DNA from: Spongiivirga citrea
Lineage (GTDB): Bacteria; Bacteroidota; Bacteroidia; Flavobacteriales; Flavobacteriaceae
Length of the DNA: 64,000 bases
Direction of reading: 5' to 3'
NCBI RefSeq assembly: GCF_010671565.1
Contig: NZ_JAABOQ010000001.1
Span: 372,001 to 436,000, forward strand
The position numbers and the translations under genes were made by a program. Within the stretch, counting starts at the first letter, position 1; every line of letters begins with the position of its first letter. Of this stretch, positions 56,550 through 64,000 are shown piece after piece. The notes under the pieces are model-generated. The model searched no databases. It saw only the letters and a list, made by a program, of their open reading frames with translations, and was not told the origin of the DNA.

Positions 56550-58208
56550 CTACTGATATTTTTTAGGGGTCTTACGTTCCTTGCTTACTTTTTCATACGC
56601 GCTACCAAGTTGTAATAACTTTTCTTCTTCAAACTGTTTTCCTATAAACGTTAAGCTCATCGGCTCACCACTTTCCTGATATCCCATAGGAACTGTTAAG
56701 GCTGGGTACTTCGCGACGGCAGCATAACCCGCATGATAATTATTTATAGAAAGTACTGCATCTACCTTTAAATCATCTAATGCAGTATTAAAGAAATTAC
56801 GACCTAAAGCTTCTAAATTTGATTTTATCACATTTAGTTCTTCAACCGTTGTAGTATCGCTTACAATACCTTCAAACAATTGCTGCCCGTAAGGTGCTCT
56901 TATTAGGGAATCTTGTTTATTGAAATTCACGACATCTTTGACCGATTTATATGATAAATCCTTATTTCCGTAATCAGCAAAATAATAAGGTAAGTCTATT
57001 TTCATATCAATATTCAACAAGGTAATAAAACCAGATAATCCTGGACTACCTGGATCAAATTCAACCAGCTCGGCTCCCGCTTTTGCTATTTTATCTAATG
57101 CAGCTACGTACAAAGAGTCTTCCTTCAAAGCTTTTATAACGCCAAAACGTTTTCCTTTTAGATCGGCATCTTCAATTTCTTTTAAATTCACTTGAATAGA
57201 CTCTACTGTACTAGAATCTGCCTTGTCCTTGCCTAACATAGCATTAAGCAAAATGGCATTATCAACTACACTTTTTGTCATTGGGCCTGGAGTGTCTAAA
57301 GTACTAGAAATAGGCACTATTCCTCCACGACTTAACTTACCAATTGTTGGTTTTAAACCGACAATACTGTTTTTACTTGATGGTGATAAAATCGATCCGC
57401 TTGTCTCGGTACCGACCGTAGCTACTGCATAATTGGCTGCTCCTGCTACTCCACTACCTGAGCTCGAGCCCCCACTCTCAAACTGCATACGCCCGTAGGG
57501 ATTCATTGTTTGTCCACCTAGCGCGCTATAGCCTAAAGGACAACCGCTACAAAAGAAATAAGCCCATTCACTTAAATTCGCCTTCCCTAAAATAATCGCA
57601 CCACTTTCCTTTAATTGCTTAGTGATGAACGCATCATCAACCATATTATCTTTTAGCGCAACCGCTCCTGCTGTTGTCGGAATTCCTGCTAATCCGATAT
57701 TATCCTTGATCAAAATCGGCATTCCTTTGATCGAGTAAAGGTCCATTGCTTCTGCATCCAAATTTTCATCTAGATCTATTGCAATACGAACCGCTTCCGG
57801 ATTTAAAGCAATAACCGCATTTAATGACAAAGTGTTATCACTTTCAAATTGACGAATTCGGTAAATGTAAAATAAGGTCAACTGCTCATAGGTCAATTTC
57901 CCTTCTTTTATACTTTTATTAATTTCAGGAATTGATTTTTCAAGTATGTACGGCTTTAATCCTTCATATTCCGCAGCTGAAAAGTATGACAACTCGGTAA
58001 TAAAAGGTTCCCAAATACTATTCTTATCTGTGACAACTGAGTTTACCAACTTATAACGCATTCGTTCGCTTTCGTGCTCTTGCTGAGCAGCAAGATCAAC
58101 AGACTCGTCATAAGCTTCCCAAATGACAGCTGGTTCTTTTTGTTTTACCTCCTTTTTGCATGCGATCAAGAGGGCAAAAACGGTAAATACTACTAGTAGT
58201 TTTTTCAT
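56550..58208 (-). CDS. amidase-signature family hydrolase, lipoprotein
   Basis: 552 residues. Lipobox LLIAC places the acylated Cys near 17, so it is exported. The amidase-signature core is present: catalytic Lys in ILIKDNIGLAG, first Ser in FESGGSSSGSGV, and second Ser in GTETSGSILSPSSKNSIVG. So it should hydrolyse amides in the periplasm or at the surface. The family covers glutamyl, fatty-acid and peptide amides, and substrate cannot be read. It lies one base after the alpha/beta hydrolase gene. Confidence 0.92.
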   Translation of the reverse strand: MKKLLVVFTVFALLIACKKEVKQKEPAVIWEAYDESVDLAAQQEHESERMRYKLVNSVVTDKNSIWEPFITELSYFSAAEYEGLKPYILEKSIPEINKSIKEGKLTYEQLTLFYIYRIRQFESDNTLSLNAVIALNPEAVRIAIDLDENLDAEAMDLYSIKGMPILIKDNIGLAGIPTTAGAVALKDNMVDDAFITKQLKESGAIILGKANLSEWAYFFCSGCPLGYSALGGQTMNPYGRMQFESGGSSSGSGVAGAANYAVATVGTETSGSILSPSSKNSIVGLKPTIGKLSRGGIVPISSTLDTPGPMTKSVVDNAILLNAMLGKDKADSSTVESIQVNLKEIEDADLKGKRFGVIKALKEDSLYVAALDKIAKAGAELVEFDPGSPGLSGFITLLNIDMKIDLPYYFADYGNKDLSYKSVKDVVNFNKQDSLIRAPYGQQLFEGIVSDTTTVEELNVIKSNLEALGRNFFNTALDDLKVDAVLSINNYHAGYAAVAKYPALTVPMGYQESGEPMSLTFIGKQFEEEKLLQLGSAYEKVSKERKTPKKYQ

Positions 58209-58209
58209 T

Positions 58210-59232
58210 TTATAGTTGAATTTCTTTTTTAATTGGTTTCAGACTTAGGGTGGCCTCGAGATACTCGATCGTCCTATTTTTTACACTCTCAAAATCTTTA
58301 CTTGTAATATGCGAAGTCATTACATGGTCATTGACATTGGCAAATGCCTGTTTACTTTTTAGTGTGTTTTTAGTTCCTAGCTTTCCATACATGTCCAACA
58401 TCGCAGAAACCGAAACTACTTTATCCTGATTTTCTTCATCTCGATAGTAATATCCCATAAAAACAGGCTGTTTTATAGCACCAAAGACATCCTCGTTCAT
58501 CGTATCATCAATCAACGCCTGCAAATGAGTCAAAGCTTCTACTCTGTATTTTGTTGTCCAATATTGCCGTTTGATAGAATCGGCTTTGAATGAAAAGTAG
58601 TCCCCTCCTTGCACCAATCGAACCAATTGTAACCCCCAAGGTCCTGATAACAATTTAGACGAACTATCATAGATTTCAACATTTGGAGAATACAATAATA
58701 AAGCCTCGATATCAGGATGCTCACTAGCTAACCACAAACCGATAGTACCTCCTGTTGAAGTGCCCATAACAATTACCTTTTCTCCTATTGTTTTTGCAAC
58801 AGCTAAGGCTCTTTTTGCACTATTCAAATAATCGGTAGCAGTTAGATTGAGCATTGGCTCCCCTTCATTTAAACCATGGCCGGCAAGTCGAGGTAAATAT
58901 AAATTGGCTCCATATCGTTTTGCCATTTGTCGATGTAAGGGCGCGCCTTCTTCATGGCTTGCAGACCAACCATGGAAATACACAAAACTATATTTAGTTT
59001 TTTTAGGAATTGAATCAAACCACACGATGGTAGATTGATTGTCAATTTTTACTTTTTCATTTGATTCTTCCTGGCTATTTATCTCATTTTCTAATTGTAG
59101 AAGATCTGTTGTTAGCTCAGGTAAATCCGGATTTAATTCTGGTTTTTCTACCCGTGGACCGAGAAAATAAACAAGAGCCAAAAGCGCTATGAGAATAAGC
59201 AAAAAACGAAAAGTCTTCTTTAAAAACCGCAC
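58210..59232 (-). CDS. alpha/beta hydrolase, exported
   Basis: 340 residues from GTG 59230-59232. An N-terminal hydrophobic segment (about 7-27) is a signal or anchor. The nucleophile elbow is GTSTGG in KVIVMGTSTGGTIGLWLA. The oxyanion strand carries FVYFHGWSAS, and a late His is in VNDHVMTSH. It is a lipase/esterase-type fold with unknown substrate. It heads the operon with the amidase and DUF2911 genes. Confidence 0.87.
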   Translation of the reverse strand: MRFLKKTFRFLLILIALLALVYFLGPRVEKPELNPDLPELTTDLLQLENEINSQEESNEKVKIDNQSTIVWFDSIPKKTKYSFVYFHGWSASHEEGAPLHRQMAKRYGANLYLPRLAGHGLNEGEPMLNLTATDYLNSAKRALAVAKTIGEKVIVMGTSTGGTIGLWLASEHPDIEALLLYSPNVEIYDSSSKLLSGPWGLQLVRLVQGGDYFSFKADSIKRQYWTTKYRVEALTHLQALIDDTMNEDVFGAIKQPVFMGYYYRDEENQDKVVSVSAMLDMYGKLGTKNTLKSKQAFANVNDHVMTSHITSKDFESVKNRTIEYLEATLSLKPIKKEIQL

Positions 59233-59389
59233 TTGGAAGTAGTATTATTTTAGGTGTTTAAAGATACTGCTTAGAATTTGAAATAGGAATGCGTTAACAA
59301 CATTAATTAGGCGGCTTGACAAGCGGAGTCTATATGATCTCAACCTAACAGTAAGCTTTTGGATACAGCAATAAAGACTTTATGAAACA

Positions 59390-59432
59390 AAAAAGCCAAG
59401 AAACCAGACTGAAAATAGTCCTGTTTCTTGGC
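59390..59432 (-). terminator. terminator after the peptidyl-prolyl isomerase (minus strand)
   Basis: On the minus strand GCCAAGAAACAGGACT pairs with AGTCTGGTTTCTTGGC (one bulge), followed by TTTTTTG. It starts about 24 bases after the gene's stop. Confidence 0.85.
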
Positions 59433-59455
59433 GCTAACTTTTTGCTTCTTGGTCC

Positions 59456-60391
59456 TTATTTAACAGCAACCAATTCTACGTCAAAAACGAGGTTTGCATT
59501 TGGTGGAATTACACCGCCTGCACCACGCTCACCATATCCTAGATGACTTGGGATTACTAAACGAGCTTTATCACCAACTTCTAGTAGTGCGATACCTTCG
59601 TCCCAACCAGCAATTACCTGACCTACGCCTAAAGCAAAATCAATTGGTTGGTTTCTTTTAAAAGAAGAATCGAATACAGTCCCGTCATCTAACTGTCCTT
59701 TATAGTGAACCGATACTGTTTTTCCTTTTCCAGCTTTTACACCAGAATTTCCTTTTTGAATGATTTGGTAACGAAGTCCGCTATCAGTTCTTTCAAATCC
59801 GGCAGATAATTTATCTAAAGCAGCATTTTGAGCTTGAACCGCTGCGGCTAAACGAGCTTCACGAGCACCTTCAAAAGTTCTAAATGCCTCAATAGCATTA
59901 AACGCTTCTGCAGAAGCACCAACACGAACGATTTCAATACTATCAATAGTATCTCCTTGTGCAACTGTATCTACAATATTTTGTCCTTCAATCACATTAC
60001 CAAAAACAGTATGCTTACCATCTAACCAATCAGTAGCGATATGAGTGATAAAAAACTGACTTCCGTTTGTTCCTGGACCCGCGTTTGCCATCGAAAGCAT
60101 ACCAGGGCCGCTATGTTTTAAATCAGGATGAATTTCGTCATCAAATTGATATCCAGGACCACCTACTCCACTTCCTTGTGGGCATCCACCTTGGATCATA
60201 AAATCAGGAATCACCCTGTGGAATTTAAGTCCATTGTAATATGGTGTGCCTTGAGGTTTTACATCATTTTCTAAGTTTCCTTCAGCCAACCCAACAAAAT
60301 TACCAACTGTACCTGGTGTTTTTTCAAATTCTAGATTTACCAAGATCTCCCCTTTAGAGGTATTGAATTTGGCATATAAACCGTCTTGCAT
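59456..60391 (-). CDS. cyclophilin-FKBP fusion peptidyl-prolyl isomerase
   Basis: 311 residues. Residues ~1-155 are a cyclophilin: [34 protein letters not shown] and [10 protein letters not shown]. Residues ~200-311 are an [34 protein letters not shown] and [24 protein letters not shown]. Linker about 156-195 is Ala-rich. Key binding residues of both domains appear intact. No signal peptide, so cytosolic. Both domains catalyse proline isomerisation, so the fusion may serve one client with two sites. Confidence 0.93.
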
Positions 60392-60413
60392 TTTTCTATT
60401 TTTAAATTGGGTG

Positions 60414-60421
60414 CAAAGGTA
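60414..60421 (-). promoter_or_regulatory. candidate -7 box for the isomerase gene (TACCTTTG)
   Basis: Minus-strand TACCTTTG, matching TAnnTTTG, 23 bases before ATG 60391. No clear -33 element. Confidence 0.5.
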
Positions 60422-60534
60422 ATTAATTCTGAAGTTTTCATTGTTGTTTTGAAAGTAGATTGTAGTAAATGAGAATACTAAAGTAAATTAGCATTTATAA
60501 ATTCGTAAAAAATAGGATTACTAATGCGTATTTG

Positions 60535-61158
60535 ATGAAACAGATTGCGAATAAAATAGCGTTTTTAGGTAAGGCTTTAGCTGACGAAATATTGCATGCG
60601 GCCATTGTTAAGCAAATACCTAAGGCCACAGAAATTTTAAGAAAAGATCAATATATTAATGTAATTCCATTTGTGGTCGAAGGACTTGTTAAGGTGATCT
60701 CTAGATTTGAAGAACGAGAACTGCTTTTGTATTACATTCAACCAAAAGAAAGTTGTATAATGTCTTTTTCAGCAGGATTGTACAATCAACCAAGCAAAAT
60801 ATATGCGGTTACTGAAGAGGATTCTACGCTACTTTTATTACCTGTAGAAAAGGTGAGAGAATGGATAAAAACATATCCCAAACTCAATGAGTTATTTTAC
60901 CAGCAATACAACGAACGTTATGTCGATCTCTTAACTAGCATAGAGCAAATTTTGATTAGCAAAATGGATAAACGACTATATGACTATTTAAAAGAGAAAG
61001 CGAAAGTAACGGCAAATAACGAGTTGAAAATTACGCACAATCAAATAGCAAACGAATTAGGCACTGTACGCGAAGTAATTAGCCGAGTATTGAAAAAATT
61101 AGAGGTAGAAAACAAAATTAAACAGTCATCACAAACCATAAAAGTACTTTCGGCGTGA
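60535..61158 (+). CDS. Crp/Fnr-family transcriptional regulator
   Basis: 207 residues from ATG 60535 (an in-frame TTG one codon earlier is less likely). The N-terminal cyclic-nucleotide-like sensor domain lacks the FNR cysteine cluster and has no conserved cAMP pocket motif that I can see, so the signal is unknown. The winged HTH (about 160-207) reads ITHNQIANELGTVREVISRVLKKLE. In the recognition helix the residues at the CRP positions are Arg, Glu and Arg (R-E-V-I-S-R), which in CRP contact GTGA. A GTGA-N6-TCAC palindrome overlaps the 3' end of this gene. The adjacent target genes are a DUF2892 pair. Confidence 0.9.
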   Translation: MKQIANKIAFLGKALADEILHAAIVKQIPKATEILRKDQYINVIPFVVEGLVKVISRFEERELLLYYIQPKESCIMSFSAGLYNQPSKIYAVTEEDSTLLLLPVEKVREWIKTYPKLNELFYQQYNERYVDLLTSIEQILISKMDKRLYDYLKEKAKVTANNELKITHNQIANELGTVREVISRVLKKLEVENKIKQSSQTIKVLSA

Positions 61159-61168
61159 CTTTAGTCAC
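61155..61168 (+). promoter_or_regulatory. CRP-type operator GTGA-CTTTAG-TCAC
   Basis: A perfect palindrome, GTGACT-TT-AGTCAC, equal to GTGA-N6-TCAC, overlapping the stop codon of the regulator. It is centred about 40 bases before the start site predicted from the -7 box at 61191, the class II activator position. Confidence 0.7.
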
Positions 61169-61190
61169 TTCTTTTTAGCAAAATCGAGAC

Positions 61191-61198
61191 TACTTTTG
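61191..61198 (+). promoter_or_regulatory. candidate -7 box TACTTTTG
   Basis: TACTTTTG fits TAnnTTTG and lies 10 bases before ATG 61208. A T-rich patch at 61172-61176 sits near the -33 position but is no clean TTG, as expected of an activated promoter. Confidence 0.6.
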
Positions 61199-61207
61199 TT
61201 TAGTAAA

Positions 61208-61306
61208 ATGGATAAAAACAAGATAATAAAGCTAGGTTTAGTGTGCATAATTTGCTTGGGCATTATTTATGGAGCCGTTTTACTTTTAACCAATGTGTTT
61301 AACTAA
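61208..61306 (+). CDS. small single-helix membrane protein (32 aa)
   Basis: MDKNKIIKLGLVCIICLGII followed by YGAVLLLTNVFN and stop: one membrane helix of about 22 residues, short basic N-terminus. It sits between the predicted promoter and the DUF2892 gene (11-base gap). Such peptides are common with DUF2892 proteins, but its family is not known to me. It is the first gene of the regulator's probable target operon. Confidence 0.55.
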   Translation: MDKNKIIKLGLVCIICLGIIYGAVLLLTNVFN

Positions 61307-61317
61307 AATTAATTATT

Positions 61318-61524
61318 ATGAAAAAAAACATGGGAACTACGGATAAGATTGTTAGATTGCTAGTCGCAATCGTTGCGGCCGTTTTGTATTTTACAGGAAC
61401 GGTAACTGGAACATTGGGAATAGTACTATTAGTGGCTGCAGGAATATTTTTACTAACTAGTTTGGTTAGTTTTTGTCCGCTTTACGCTCCTTTTGGTATT
61501 AGCACCTGTTCAGTAAAGAAGTAG
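61318..61524 (+). CDS. DUF2892 (YgaP-type transmembrane) protein
   Basis: 68 residues: two membrane helices (about 10-28 and 30-48) and the C-terminal FCPLYAPFGISTCSVKK with the family's two cysteines. The opening KKNMGTTDKIVRLL is typical of DUF2892. In YgaP the same domain is fused to rhodanese; here it stands alone. A link to thiol or sulfur stress is thus suggested, not shown. It is in the predicted regulon of the upstream Crp-family regulator. A terminator follows at 61586. Confidence 0.9.
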   Translation: MKKNMGTTDKIVRLLVAIVAAVLYFTGTVTGTLGIVLLVAAGIFLLTSLVSFCPLYAPFGISTCSVKK

Positions 61525-61585
61525 AGTCGAATCCCCTGACTATAAATATGAATCGATTCGGGCTTTAAAATCGATTTGTACTAAG

Positions 61586-61612
61586 AAAAACCCAGGTATA
61601 TCCTGGGTTTTT
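61586..61612 (+). terminator. rho-independent terminator after DUF2892
   Basis: AAAAACCCAGG / CCTGGGTTTTT with a 5-base loop, then TTCG. 61 bases after the stop codon. Confidence 0.88.
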
Positions 61613-61653
61613 CGATTAGTACTATTCTGAAATTTGAAATTTCAATGGAAAAT

Positions 61654-61690
61654 AAAAAAGTTCCAACGGCATATACCATTGGAGCTTTTT
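61654..61690 (-). terminator. terminator after fasciclin gene (minus strand)
   Basis: AAAAAGTTCCAACGG / CCATTGGAGCTTTTT, pairing with two G-U type mismatches, T tract on the minus strand. 10 bases beyond the stop. Confidence 0.75.
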
Positions 61691-61700
61691 ATGCTAATTA

Positions 61701-64000
61701 TTAATGTGAAGCCGGCGGAATAAGTACACCAGTTATTACGTGTACAACTCCATTTGTTGCTTCAATATCTGCAATAGCCACTTGAATTACATGACCATTT
61801 AGATAAATCTTTCCGTTATTATAAAAGATTGTTACATCCTGACCTTGTAAGGTTGTAACGGTATGCAATTGCTTCAAATCATCGGCCAACAACTTTTGCC
61901 CTACTACATGATACTTCAACACTTCTACTAAAGCATCACCTTCTGGTAATGCTGCTAATTGAGCAAAAGCATCGTTTGTAGGTGCAAATACTGTAAAACT
62001 TCCTTCACCATCTAAAACACCATCCAAACCTGCAGCTTCAACAGCGCTAACCAAAGTTGAAAGTTCCGGAGTCTCTTTCGCTAGGTCTAAGATTGTTTTC
62101 CCAGTAAAACTTGGTGGAATCAATACTCCATCAATTACATGAATAACGCCATTAGAAGCCATGATATCTTTTACAATAACGCTTATCGTTTCATTTAAAG
62201 TAATCATATCGCCATTACGCACAACAGATACCTGCTCTCCTTGCTTTGTAGTTACTAATGTTTCTCCTTGAGGGATGTCTGCTGAAGCTATTTTACCATC
62301 AATTACATGGTATAATAACACTTGAACTAGTGCATCACCCTCAGGAATTGCATCTAATTGATCAAATGCAGTATTTGTGGGTGCGAATACTGTAAACGGG
62401 CCATCGTCTTGTAATGCTTCTACTAAGCCAGCTTGCCCTAATGCACTTACCAAAGTGCTAAAGTCAGGATTGCCAACAGCAATATCAACTATTGAAGGTA
62501 AGGGTTGTAGACTTGGCGGAATTAATACACCGTCGATTACATGAATTACCCCGTTCGACGCCATGACATCTTTTAAAATCACCGTAATAGATTCATTTAA
62601 GGTAATCATATCTCCATTTCGAACTACAGAAACTTCTTCTCCTTGCTTCGTTGTCACTAATGTTTCTCCTTCGGGAATATCTCCTGAAGTAATTTTTCCA
62701 TCAATTACATGGTATAATAAAACTTGTGCTAATGCATCCCCTTCTGGAATTGCATCCAATTGATCAAATGCAGCATTTGTTGGAGCGAATACTGTAAATG
62801 GTCCTTCTCCTTGCAAGGCATCTACCAAATTTGCTTGACCTAAAGCAGCGACTAGAGTGCTAAAGTCAGGATTACCAACAGCAATGTCAACTATTGAAGG
62901 TAGTGGCGGTAACAAAACTGTATCGATGACATGAACGATACCGTTCGAAGCCATAATATCAGCAATCACCACTTTTACCATTCCATTTAAAATCACATCA
63001 TCGCCAATTTTTTCTACGGTAATTTCGGCTCCCTGAATAGTTGTTACTTTTCCATCTGCTAATAATGTAGCGGCATCAAATTTCCCAGCTGCAACATGAT
63101 ATAATAACACATCTTTTAAAGCATCGCCTTCTGGTAGCGCATCTAGTTTTTCAAAAGCATCATTTGTAGGCGCAAATACTGTAAATGGTCCTTCACCTTG
63201 TAATGTTTCAACCAAATCAGCAGCGCTTAGTGCACTTACCAGTGTTGAGAAGTTTTCATCTCCTGTAGCAATATCCACAATAGATGGCAGCGGCGGGATT
63301 AAGACATCATTAATAACATGTACAATACCGTTTGAAGCCATAATATTTGCAATGGCAACCTCAATATTCCCATTTAAAATGACCTTATCATCAGTCATTT
63401 CCACAGCAATTTCCGCTCCATTATTAAGAGTAACTACTGTACCAGCTTCTACAATATCTGCTGCAGTGAGCTTTCCAGATGCAACATGGTATAGTAATAC
63501 CTCAGTTAAAGCATCGCCTTCAGGAATGGCTGCCAACTTCTCAAAAGCGGCATTAGTAGGAGCAAATACCGTAAAAGGACCGTCTCCTTGGAGTGTTTCT
63601 ACTAAGTTAGCAGTTGTTAGTGCATTTACTAAAGTGGAGAAATTCTCATCACCAGTTGCTATCTCTACAATAGAAGGTAAATCCTGAAATGATGGTGGAA
63701 TCAGTACCGCGTCGATGACATGTAAAATGCCATTTTTGGCTCTAATATTTGCTTGCACTAGTTTTACAACATCATTAATAATGATCTCATTATTCTCATT
63801 TAAAGAAACCTTGATATCTTCTCCCTGTAAGGTTGCAAGCATTTCTTTTTGCAGCAACTTCTGCGTACGGAACTTACCATCTAAAACATGATATAATAGC
63901 ACTTGTTTTAGCGTATCTCCTCCTGGAACTGTCTCTAATGCAGCAAATGCATCATCCGTAGGAGCAAATAAGGTAAGTGGACCATCTCCTTTAAGTGCAT
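61701..64000 (-). CDS. multi-domain fasciclin (FAS1) repeat protein, 5' part missing
   Basis: The frame is open to the right edge, so the N-terminus lies outside; a GTG at 63902 is an internal Val and not a start. 766 residues are visible: one partial and five complete FAS1 domains. Each has the signature FAPTN(D/A)AF, a LLYHV block and (M)ASNG(I/V)(V/I)HVI(D/N).VL(I/L)PP. Approximate spans, 3' to 5': F 61704-62099, E 62110-62499, D 62500-62899, C 62901-63287, B 63289-63684 and partial A 63685-64000. FAS1 proteins are surface adhesins. Domains D and E differ at about 15 of ~130 residues, so this pair is a recent duplication. A minus-strand terminator follows. Confidence 0.95.
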   Translation of the reverse strand, partial: ALKGDGPLTLFAPTDDAFAALETVPGGDTLKQVLLYHVLDGKFRTQKLLQKEMLATLQGEDIKVSLNENNEIIINDVVKLVQANIRAKNGILHVIDAVLIPPSFQDLPSIVEIATGDENFSTLVNALTTANLVETLQGDGPFTVFAPTNAAFEKLAAIPEGDALTEVLLYHVASGKLTAADIVEAGTVVTLNNGAEIAVEMTDDKVILNGNIEVAIANIMASNGIVHVINDVLIPPLPSIVDIATGDENFSTLVSALSAADLVETLQGEGPFTVFAPTNDAFEKLDALPEGDALKDVLLYHVAAGKFDAATLLADGKVTTIQGAEITVEKIGDDVILNGMVKVVIADIMASNGIVHVIDTVLLPPLPSIVDIAVGNPDFSTLVAALGQANLVDALQGEGPFTVFAPTNAAFDQLDAIPEGDALAQVLLYHVIDGKITSGDIPEGETLVTTKQGEEVSVVRNGDMITLNESITVILKDVMASNGVIHVIDGVLIPPSLQPLPSIVDIAVGNPDFSTLVSALGQAGLVEALQDDGPFTVFAPTNTAFDQLDAIPEGDALVQVLLYHVIDGKIASADIPQGETLVTTKQGEQVSVVRNGDMITLNETISVIVKDIMASNGVIHVIDGVLIPPSFTGKTILDLAKETPELSTLVSAVEAAGLDGVLDGEGSFTVFAPTNDAFAQLAALPEGDALVEVLKYHVVGQKLLADDLKQLHTVTTLQGQDVTIFYNNGKIYLNGHVIQVAIADIEATNGVVHVITGVLIPPASH
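62110..62899 (-). repeat. two near-identical tandem FAS1 repeats (D and E)
   Basis: Two consecutive coding units of about 390 bases with the same order of motifs and nearly the same wording (both have VGNPDFSTLV, LDAIPEGDAL, LVTTKQGE and VVRNGDMITLNE). They are the likeliest place for recombination in this gene. Confidence 0.85.

Follow-up and report, generated by a model that had tools for sequence, protein, structure and literature searches.

To our knowledge, few Bacteroidota transcription factors have known operators. A locus of Spongiivirga citrea, in which a Crp-family regulator gene ends in a palindrome and is followed by a small hydrophobic peptide and a DUF2892 protein, raises the question of whether regulator, site and target belong together and, if so, what the regulator does there. 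The window, by which we mean the whole stretch of 64,000 nucleotides that was analysed, had been interpreted from its letters in an earlier note, which proposed that protein and site predict each other. In relatives from the Bacteroidota and nearby phyla, our comparison found regulator, site, target gene and the fixed promoter spacing kept as a set, and the regulator-operator pairing is, judging from sequence, very probably real.

The regulator and its palindrome

The regulator (60535 to 61158 on the forward strand, stop codon included) comprises 207 amino acids and was assigned to the Crp family through Pfam, orthologues, an AF2 model and Foldseek. In the Pfam scan, PF13545 (HTH_Crp_2, 36.5 bits) and PF00325 (Crp, 23.5 bits) both exceed their cut-offs, and PF00027 (cNMP_binding) reaches 27.2 bits, 0.3 bit below its cut-off of 27.5. 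Orthologues in eight related genomes (L002 to L009) are 49–60% identical. The AF2 model (mean pLDDT 89.3, pTM 0.65) has CRP-family structures as its top Foldseek matches, with TM scores of only about 0.5–0.6, which we ascribe to domain orientation. Both defining parts of the Crp/Fnr superfamily, an N-terminal cNMP-type beta-roll and a C-terminal Crp helix-turn-helix, are present. The best PDB sequence match is 3dv8, a Crp/Fnr protein of the Firmicute Eubacterium rectale (E 1.3e-24); it has a cysteine aligned to Cys74 of the regulator.

Membership in the superfamily does not make the protein a cAMP-CRP orthologue. It scores 45.2 bits with the NCBIfam CRP model PRK11753, against a cut-off of 266, and the cAMP-contact segment is unconserved in an alignment judged by eye, in which the GELGLFEE segment of E. 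coli CRP has no conserved counterpart; E72 and R82 are cAMP contacts of CRP. We also rejected an oxygen sensor of the FNR kind, in which four cysteines hold an iron-sulfur cluster. Cys74 (codon at 60754 to 60756, forward strand), just before a model helix that starts at residue 75, is the sole cysteine of the regulator, leaving no FNR-type cluster. The remark that the sensor lacks FNR cysteines is borne out to this extent, with the qualification that the signal domain retains one cysteine that is invariant among close relatives.

What the regulator shares with E. coli CRP, besides superfamily and fold, are the Arg-Glu-x-x-x-Arg contacts and an operator centre at −41.5, which is predicted here. 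The recognition helix T-V-R-E-V-I-S-R (residues 177 to 184; 61063 to 61086, forward strand) lines up with R-E-T-V-G-R of CRP, which puts R179, E180 and R184 at the CRP contact positions, as had been claimed. All three residues occur in 80 of 80 rows of alignment A2, which consists of the window and 79 named loci (L122 left out) from the best 80 of 151 relatives described below.

Over the end of the gene lies the candidate operator GTGACTTTAGTCAC (GTGAC-TTTA-GTCAC, 61155 to 61168), which overlaps the regulator's TGA at 61156 to 61158. It had been described as a perfect CRP-type palindrome over the stop codon. The location and the overlap are correct; six of the seven base pairs of the dyad match, with TT at the centre, and the motif is GTGAC-N4-GTCAC, not the E. 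coli CRP consensus with its ends TGTGA and TCACA. The flanks of the window palindrome are C and T, the outer T and A of that consensus being absent.

The pattern GTGA-N6-TCAC is expected 0.51 times in the window and occurred at least once in 40 of 100 shuffles, so by itself the site would be unremarkable. A scan of the whole genome, proposed earlier as a check, found it unenriched (24 sites against 39 with a reversed control), and we therefore dropped it as a regulon detector and used a composite motif instead, namely GTGAC-N4-GTCAC combined with a TAnnTTTG whose distance from the centre is fixed at 29 nt. The exact composite motif has a single match in the 4.15 Mb genome, at the window locus, and this, together with the palindrome in all 76 DUF2892 loci among the best 80 of 151, sets the site above chance. 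Across nine genomes, up to two mismatches gave 56 matches against 11 with a reversed control; the exact matches number seven, every one at the regulator locus, and the regulator loci of G025 and G065 carry the motif with one mismatch. Since exact matches are confined to the regulator locus, the regulator looks local, not global. It differs in this respect from E. coli CRP, which governs a global regulon, whereas apparently one local target and the motif GTGAC-N4-GTCAC are found here. No tRNA was found in 58000 to 64000.

Sites of related form occur elsewhere in the genome (G000). The palindrome ATGAC-N4-GTCAT with TAnnTTTG at +29 is present at L255 (G000 C14:94831-94874, minus strand), 70 bp ahead of a gene in which a CxxCH motif is recognisable by eye. 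A Sec-type NosZ, which scores 930 bits against a cut-off of 625, follows two genes on along the same strand. The geometry at L255 is that of the window locus, and the site probably belongs to a separate anaerobic regulon. The same form stands at L254 (G000 C12:37602-37645) before a 230-aa gene. A NapA-type gene (a fragment, best match NapA) lies 2.6 kb beyond that site with an opposite-strand gene between, which makes any link to nap a weak one. The genome also encodes, at L251 (G000 C9:591234-591804, minus strand), a third and distant Crp-type regulator that lacks the Cys motif. Behind it stands TTGACAATTGTCAA with its box at +29, and next comes a gene with weak, below-cut-off DoxX/DoxD matches.

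Conservation of the locus and geometry of its predicted promoter

Alignment A1, made from six regulator proteins, was searched against a collection of genomes from 84,980 species, one per species, and located 151 places that encode a relative. The best 80 were kept by protein similarity alone, DNA motifs playing no role, and weaker relatives lie outside the set. There is a small overlap with the starting material, in that L145 and L118 look identical to G047:C11 and G042:C16; as the G047 regulator (L006) is one of the six query rows, L145 was apparently in A1. Identity to the regulator is 52–66% across these best 80 of 151 loci, nearly all of which are from Bacteroidota, including Flavobacteriaceae, Saprospiraceae, Cytophagaceae, Cyclobacteriaceae, Chitinophagaceae, Bacteroidales and others; Chlorobiota (L098), Balneolaceae (L144) and Rhodohalobacter (L100) are also represented.

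Of the best 80 of 151 loci, 76 have a DUF2892-like ORF, recognised by sequence pattern, as the gene after the regulator. Every one of these 76 has the palindrome near the regulator stop, 71 of them as perfect GTGAC-N4-GTCAC (75 were counted by script, and L122 was read by hand and then confirmed by script), so the conservation in homologous loci on which the earlier proposal depended is present. Three loci without DUF2892 (L072, L075 and L092) have no palindrome by the regulator gene (0 of 3), and the fourth, L111, stops at a contig edge. The best 80 of 151 loci, 858,270 bases in all, contain no other perfect GTGAC-N4-GTCAC. Of 78 loci from this same best-80 set, a single one has GTGA-N6-TCAC upstream of the regulator; we rejected autoregulation through such a site on this count, and nothing suggests that the regulator represses its own gene.

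Beyond the regulator and DUF2892, no strongly conserved neighbour was found among the best 80 of 151. The next-commonest neighbour family, a lipoprotein, appears in 14 of these loci (same strand: 10 copies upstream, 8 downstream; opposite strand: 2 copies upstream); at L095, L121, L125 and L130 a lipoprotein with an SGTWRIT motif lies downstream of DUF2892, and the family member scanned (70 residues) has no Pfam match. In the window, a tandem fasciclin-domain protein (61701 to 63902, minus strand; six stretches, 582 bits) adjoins the locus.

The −7 box TACTTTTG (TAnnTTTG; 61191 to 61198, forward strand) begins 29 nt past the palindrome centre. According to a start-site map of Flavobacterium psychrophilum, TAnnTTTG lies at −12 to −5 (PMC9723704), and by this convention the transcription start is predicted at 61203 on the forward strand and the palindrome centre is computed at −41.5. 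An operator so centred overlaps the upstream promoter element in the manner of a class II promoter, the start site being a predicted one. Among the 76 DUF2892 loci in the best 80 of 151, TAnnTTTG stands at exactly +29 with all six fixed bases in 49, with five bases in 23, with four in 3 and with three in 1; the box is thus inexact in 27, in four of these by at least two bases. An exact TAnnTTTG at another position between 0 and +79 was found only twice in 75 loci (best 80 of 151). Across 75 loci (best 80 of 151) the first base of the palindrome lies between −8 and +15 of the stop codon's end, apart from one of these loci in which it is at +80, and this variation means that the coding sequence does not hold the palindrome in place. 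A centre at −41.5 with near-constant spacing is the class II, classic activating position of Crp-type activators, and the class II placement before a predicted start, as originally suggested for the window, agrees with the relatives. The position +9 past the palindrome is G in 73 of 76 relatives and TGCA occupies +8 to +11 in 46 of 75 (best 80 of 151), which would fit the −33 TTTG-like element with its 19-base spacing. The window has T at +9, with TTCTTTTT in place of the usual G, so its promoter may be weaker and its hairpin may terminate.

The last point bears on what the palindrome is for. As an intrinsic terminator of the regulator gene, it would form a 5-bp hairpin followed by TTCTTTTT, and the window hairpin does score as terminator-like, with a local fold of −6.2 kcal/mol. 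The z-score of that fold against shuffles is, however, −0.92, and among relatives in the best 80 of 151 a run of at least five T in the eight bases after the palindrome appears in only 9 of 76, and G at +9 is found in 73 of 76. A terminator would also not be expected to keep a fixed 29-nt spacing to a promoter box. With the T run in 9 of 76 we rejected termination as the conserved role; it may still operate in the window, and as the explanation of the palindrome it is very improbable. Binding by the regulator need not imply activation, since Crp-family members can repress, and an operator that overlaps the −33 region could be occupied until a signal releases it. The classic activating position with its near-constant spacing, and the lack of a second perfect site in the best 80 of 151 loci, make repression unlikely. 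A further reading assigns the site to another Crp-type protein, for instance the paralogue on contig C12, which owns the similar site GTGACTTTTATCAC, and lets the adjacent regulator act elsewhere. That every perfect site in the best 80 of 151 loci lies beside the regulator, and that the association of helix and site favours Glu with GTGAC, leave this reading with hardly more than a slight chance, and activation by the adjacent regulator is the interpretation we prefer.

Recognition helix and sensor in the wider clade

The association of helix and site was examined in a wider clade of 92 regulators from related genomes, made up of 91 matches with E ≤7.1e-29 and the weak own-genome member L047; other matches weaker than E 7.1e-29 were excluded. 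Sites were scored for 90 of the 92, the helix pattern having missed L047 and L176, of which L176 has R-E-A-V-S-R by eye and the mixed site GTAACCTTCATCAC. At base 3 of the half-site, Glu members have 31 G and 5 A, and Val members 62 A, 7 G and 5 others; Glu members outside the orthologue group have 14 G and 4 A. The 18 Glu members with a site are GTGA-type in both halves in 13 cases and in one half in 5, with none lacking it in both, and the 37 Val members with a site are GTAA-type in both halves in 27 cases, mixed in 7 and odd in 3, with GTGA in both halves in none. No site was found in the stretch examined for 32 of the 90 (28 Val, 4 Glu), and two Thr members and one Ile member are also among those scored. 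A Fisher test on half-sites, Glu or Val against base, gives 7e-15 for members that share ancestry. Four changes suffice to place the Glu/Val label on the tree and one independent pair could be formed, so that the co-variation is largely shared ancestry and no significance is possible. In these predicted sites a helix Glu is associated with GTGAC and a helix Val with GTAAC, with few independent switches; the proposal that protein and site predict each other gains from the co-variation and loses from the small number of switches.

The same base is known to respond to the same residue elsewhere, as a Glu181-to-Val change in E. coli CRP alters specificity there, and NtcA and other Crp members combine Val at the second contact with half-sites of the GTA type. 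The Val subclade resembles NtcA in having mostly GTAAC-N4-GTTAC, and the sequence matches in the PDB include structures of NtcA; the window regulator departs from the NtcA type in combining Glu with GTGAC. Among Glu members, family f5 (L010 to L013) carries GTGACTTTTATCAC roughly 50 bp beyond the stop codon and has its box at +30, and the gene that follows encodes a DUF5777 beta-barrel; relatives of that gene, 33–43% identical, lie some kb downstream in 4 of 80 loci (L097, L114, L117 and L139; best 80 of 151). Two other clade members, L014 and L017, precede a gene for a hexameric tyrosine-coordinated haem protein and have mixed GTAAC/GTCAC sites.

The sensor domain is marked by Cys74 and Met76, both present in 80 of 80 rows of A2 (best 80 of 151), and 91 of the 92 wider-clade members have Cys at the Cys74 position. 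The genes that follow these regulators offer a clue to the signal. A downstream gene, taken as a same-strand ATG ORF of at least 50 aa that starts no more than 500 nt after the regulator, was available for 86 of the 92. These fall into clusters of TauE/SafE (18), YeeE/YedE-type sulfur transport (17), DUF2892 (10), the sulfate-permease family (7), MBL-fold (6), DUF5777 (4), cytochrome c (3), the haem protein HTHP (2) and another family (2), with 17 single genes; names rest on a Pfam scan of one representative for seven clusters, the window DUF2892 being scanned separately. Four sulfur-related clusters together account for 48 of the 86. In this genome, the paralogous regulator L048 (G000 C12:528134-532028), which has Thr in its helix (R-T-V-I-S-R), stands before GTGACTTTTATCAC with the box at +29, followed by two sulfur-transport genes as well as genes for TauE and MBL-rhodanese.

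Because the wider clade so often lies beside sulfur-transport or persulfide-type genes and shares Cys74, we favour a reactive sulfur species (sulfide or persulfide) acting via Cys74 as the likeliest signal, a proposal of which we are much less sure than of the rest. No sulfur gene conserved beside the DUF2892 subclade was found among the best 80 of 151, so the proposal draws on the relatives. A haem or small-molecule domain that responds to CO, NO or sulfide at haem is the competing possibility, with Cys74 and Met76 serving as CooA-like ligands. The conservation of both residues in 80 of 80 rows (best 80 of 151) would suit it, as would the presence of CooA and DNR structures among the sequence matches of the regulator, and the Cys/His haem ligands of CooA presumably fall in the Cys74 region of the sensor. 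The sulfur-related neighbours of the clade suit thiol chemistry equally or better, which leaves a haem sensor a rather doubtful, though serious, candidate and thiol sensing of sulfur species the favoured reading.

The predicted target genes and the reach of the unit

Between the regulator and DUF2892 lies an ORF for a hydrophobic microprotein of 32 aa with V-C-x-x-C (61208 to 61306, forward strand), preceded by a predicted 5′ leader of 5 nt; an alternative start at an upstream TTG would make it 36 aa. It is a predicted membrane peptide on account of its hydrophobic sequence and has no match in Pfam or NCBIfam. Similar ORFs of 30–39 aa occupy the same place in 18 of 80 loci, 17 of them with C-x-x-C and L110 without (best 80 of 151); this conservation comes partly from selection, as the set was picked for Cys and then for C-x-x-C, with L110, which lacks both, added by hand. 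Over all pairs of 19 rows, changes at the three codon positions number 2179, 1191 and 3233, highest at the third. The start is uncertain at L073, and eight other loci with long gaps yielded no convincing peptide on reading, L134 having a diverged one.

The second predicted target is a 68-aa DUF2892 / YgaP-like transmembrane protein (61318 to 61524, forward strand), which belongs to PF11127 at 80.2 bits (cut-off 25.3). The family is named after E. coli YgaP, with which the protein shares its membrane domain; YgaP also carries a rhodanese domain, which the Pfam scan does not find in the window protein. A second, weaker DUF2892 copy (L256, G000 C10:622458-622619; 44 bits) is present in the genome, and the only GTGA-N6-TCAC site of its contig is 500 kb off.

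The link between such a regulator and these targets had been put forward as one not known to be described, and searches of the open-access literature listed no recognisable description of a regulator-operator-DUF2892 unit. A distant precedent does exist. In Bradyrhizobium diazoefficiens, as PMC6710368 reports, NnrR influences an operon with the DUF2892 gene bsr5776 beside trxC, so that a DUF2892 gene under a Crp/Fnr-type regulator is common to both systems. The two also differ: NnrR is a denitrification regulator with TTG-type boxes, bsr5776 does not lie next to nnrR, and the nnrR mutant shows a mild effect (−2.7 fold).

As far as comparison of sequences can take it, there is good support for pairing the protein with the site, and the pairing appears to be generalisable. 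We consider it likely that the regulator is a local class II activator. From the arrangement of the locus we infer a one-component Crp-family protein that would bind GTGAC-N4-GTCAC where its own gene ends, with the centre of the site at −41.5, and would activate rather than repress by recruiting RNA polymerase, from this class II position, to the TAnnTTTG promoter. A single transcript would then encode two membrane products, the small CxxC peptide and the DUF2892 protein, and a reactive sulfur species, the likeliest signal, would act through Cys74. A broader model can be offered tentatively: a Bacteroidota-wide Crp-type clade might sense reactive sulfur by its near-invariant cysteine, many members standing before their own class II operator at fixed spacing, with Glu and Val as a natural switch between GTGAC and GTAAC, and DUF2892, joined in some lineages by the CxxC microprotein, might handle sulfane sulfur at the membrane.

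The operator, the promoter geometry and the target can all be read from sequence and are directly testable, and the identical geometry is seen again ahead of sulfur-transport genes and of a gene cluster for nitrous-oxide reductase. The locus adds a conserved small protein without Pfam or NCBIfam match, and it may open a way to study how a major phylum regulates sulfur and anaerobic functions and give a hint at the function of DUF2892.
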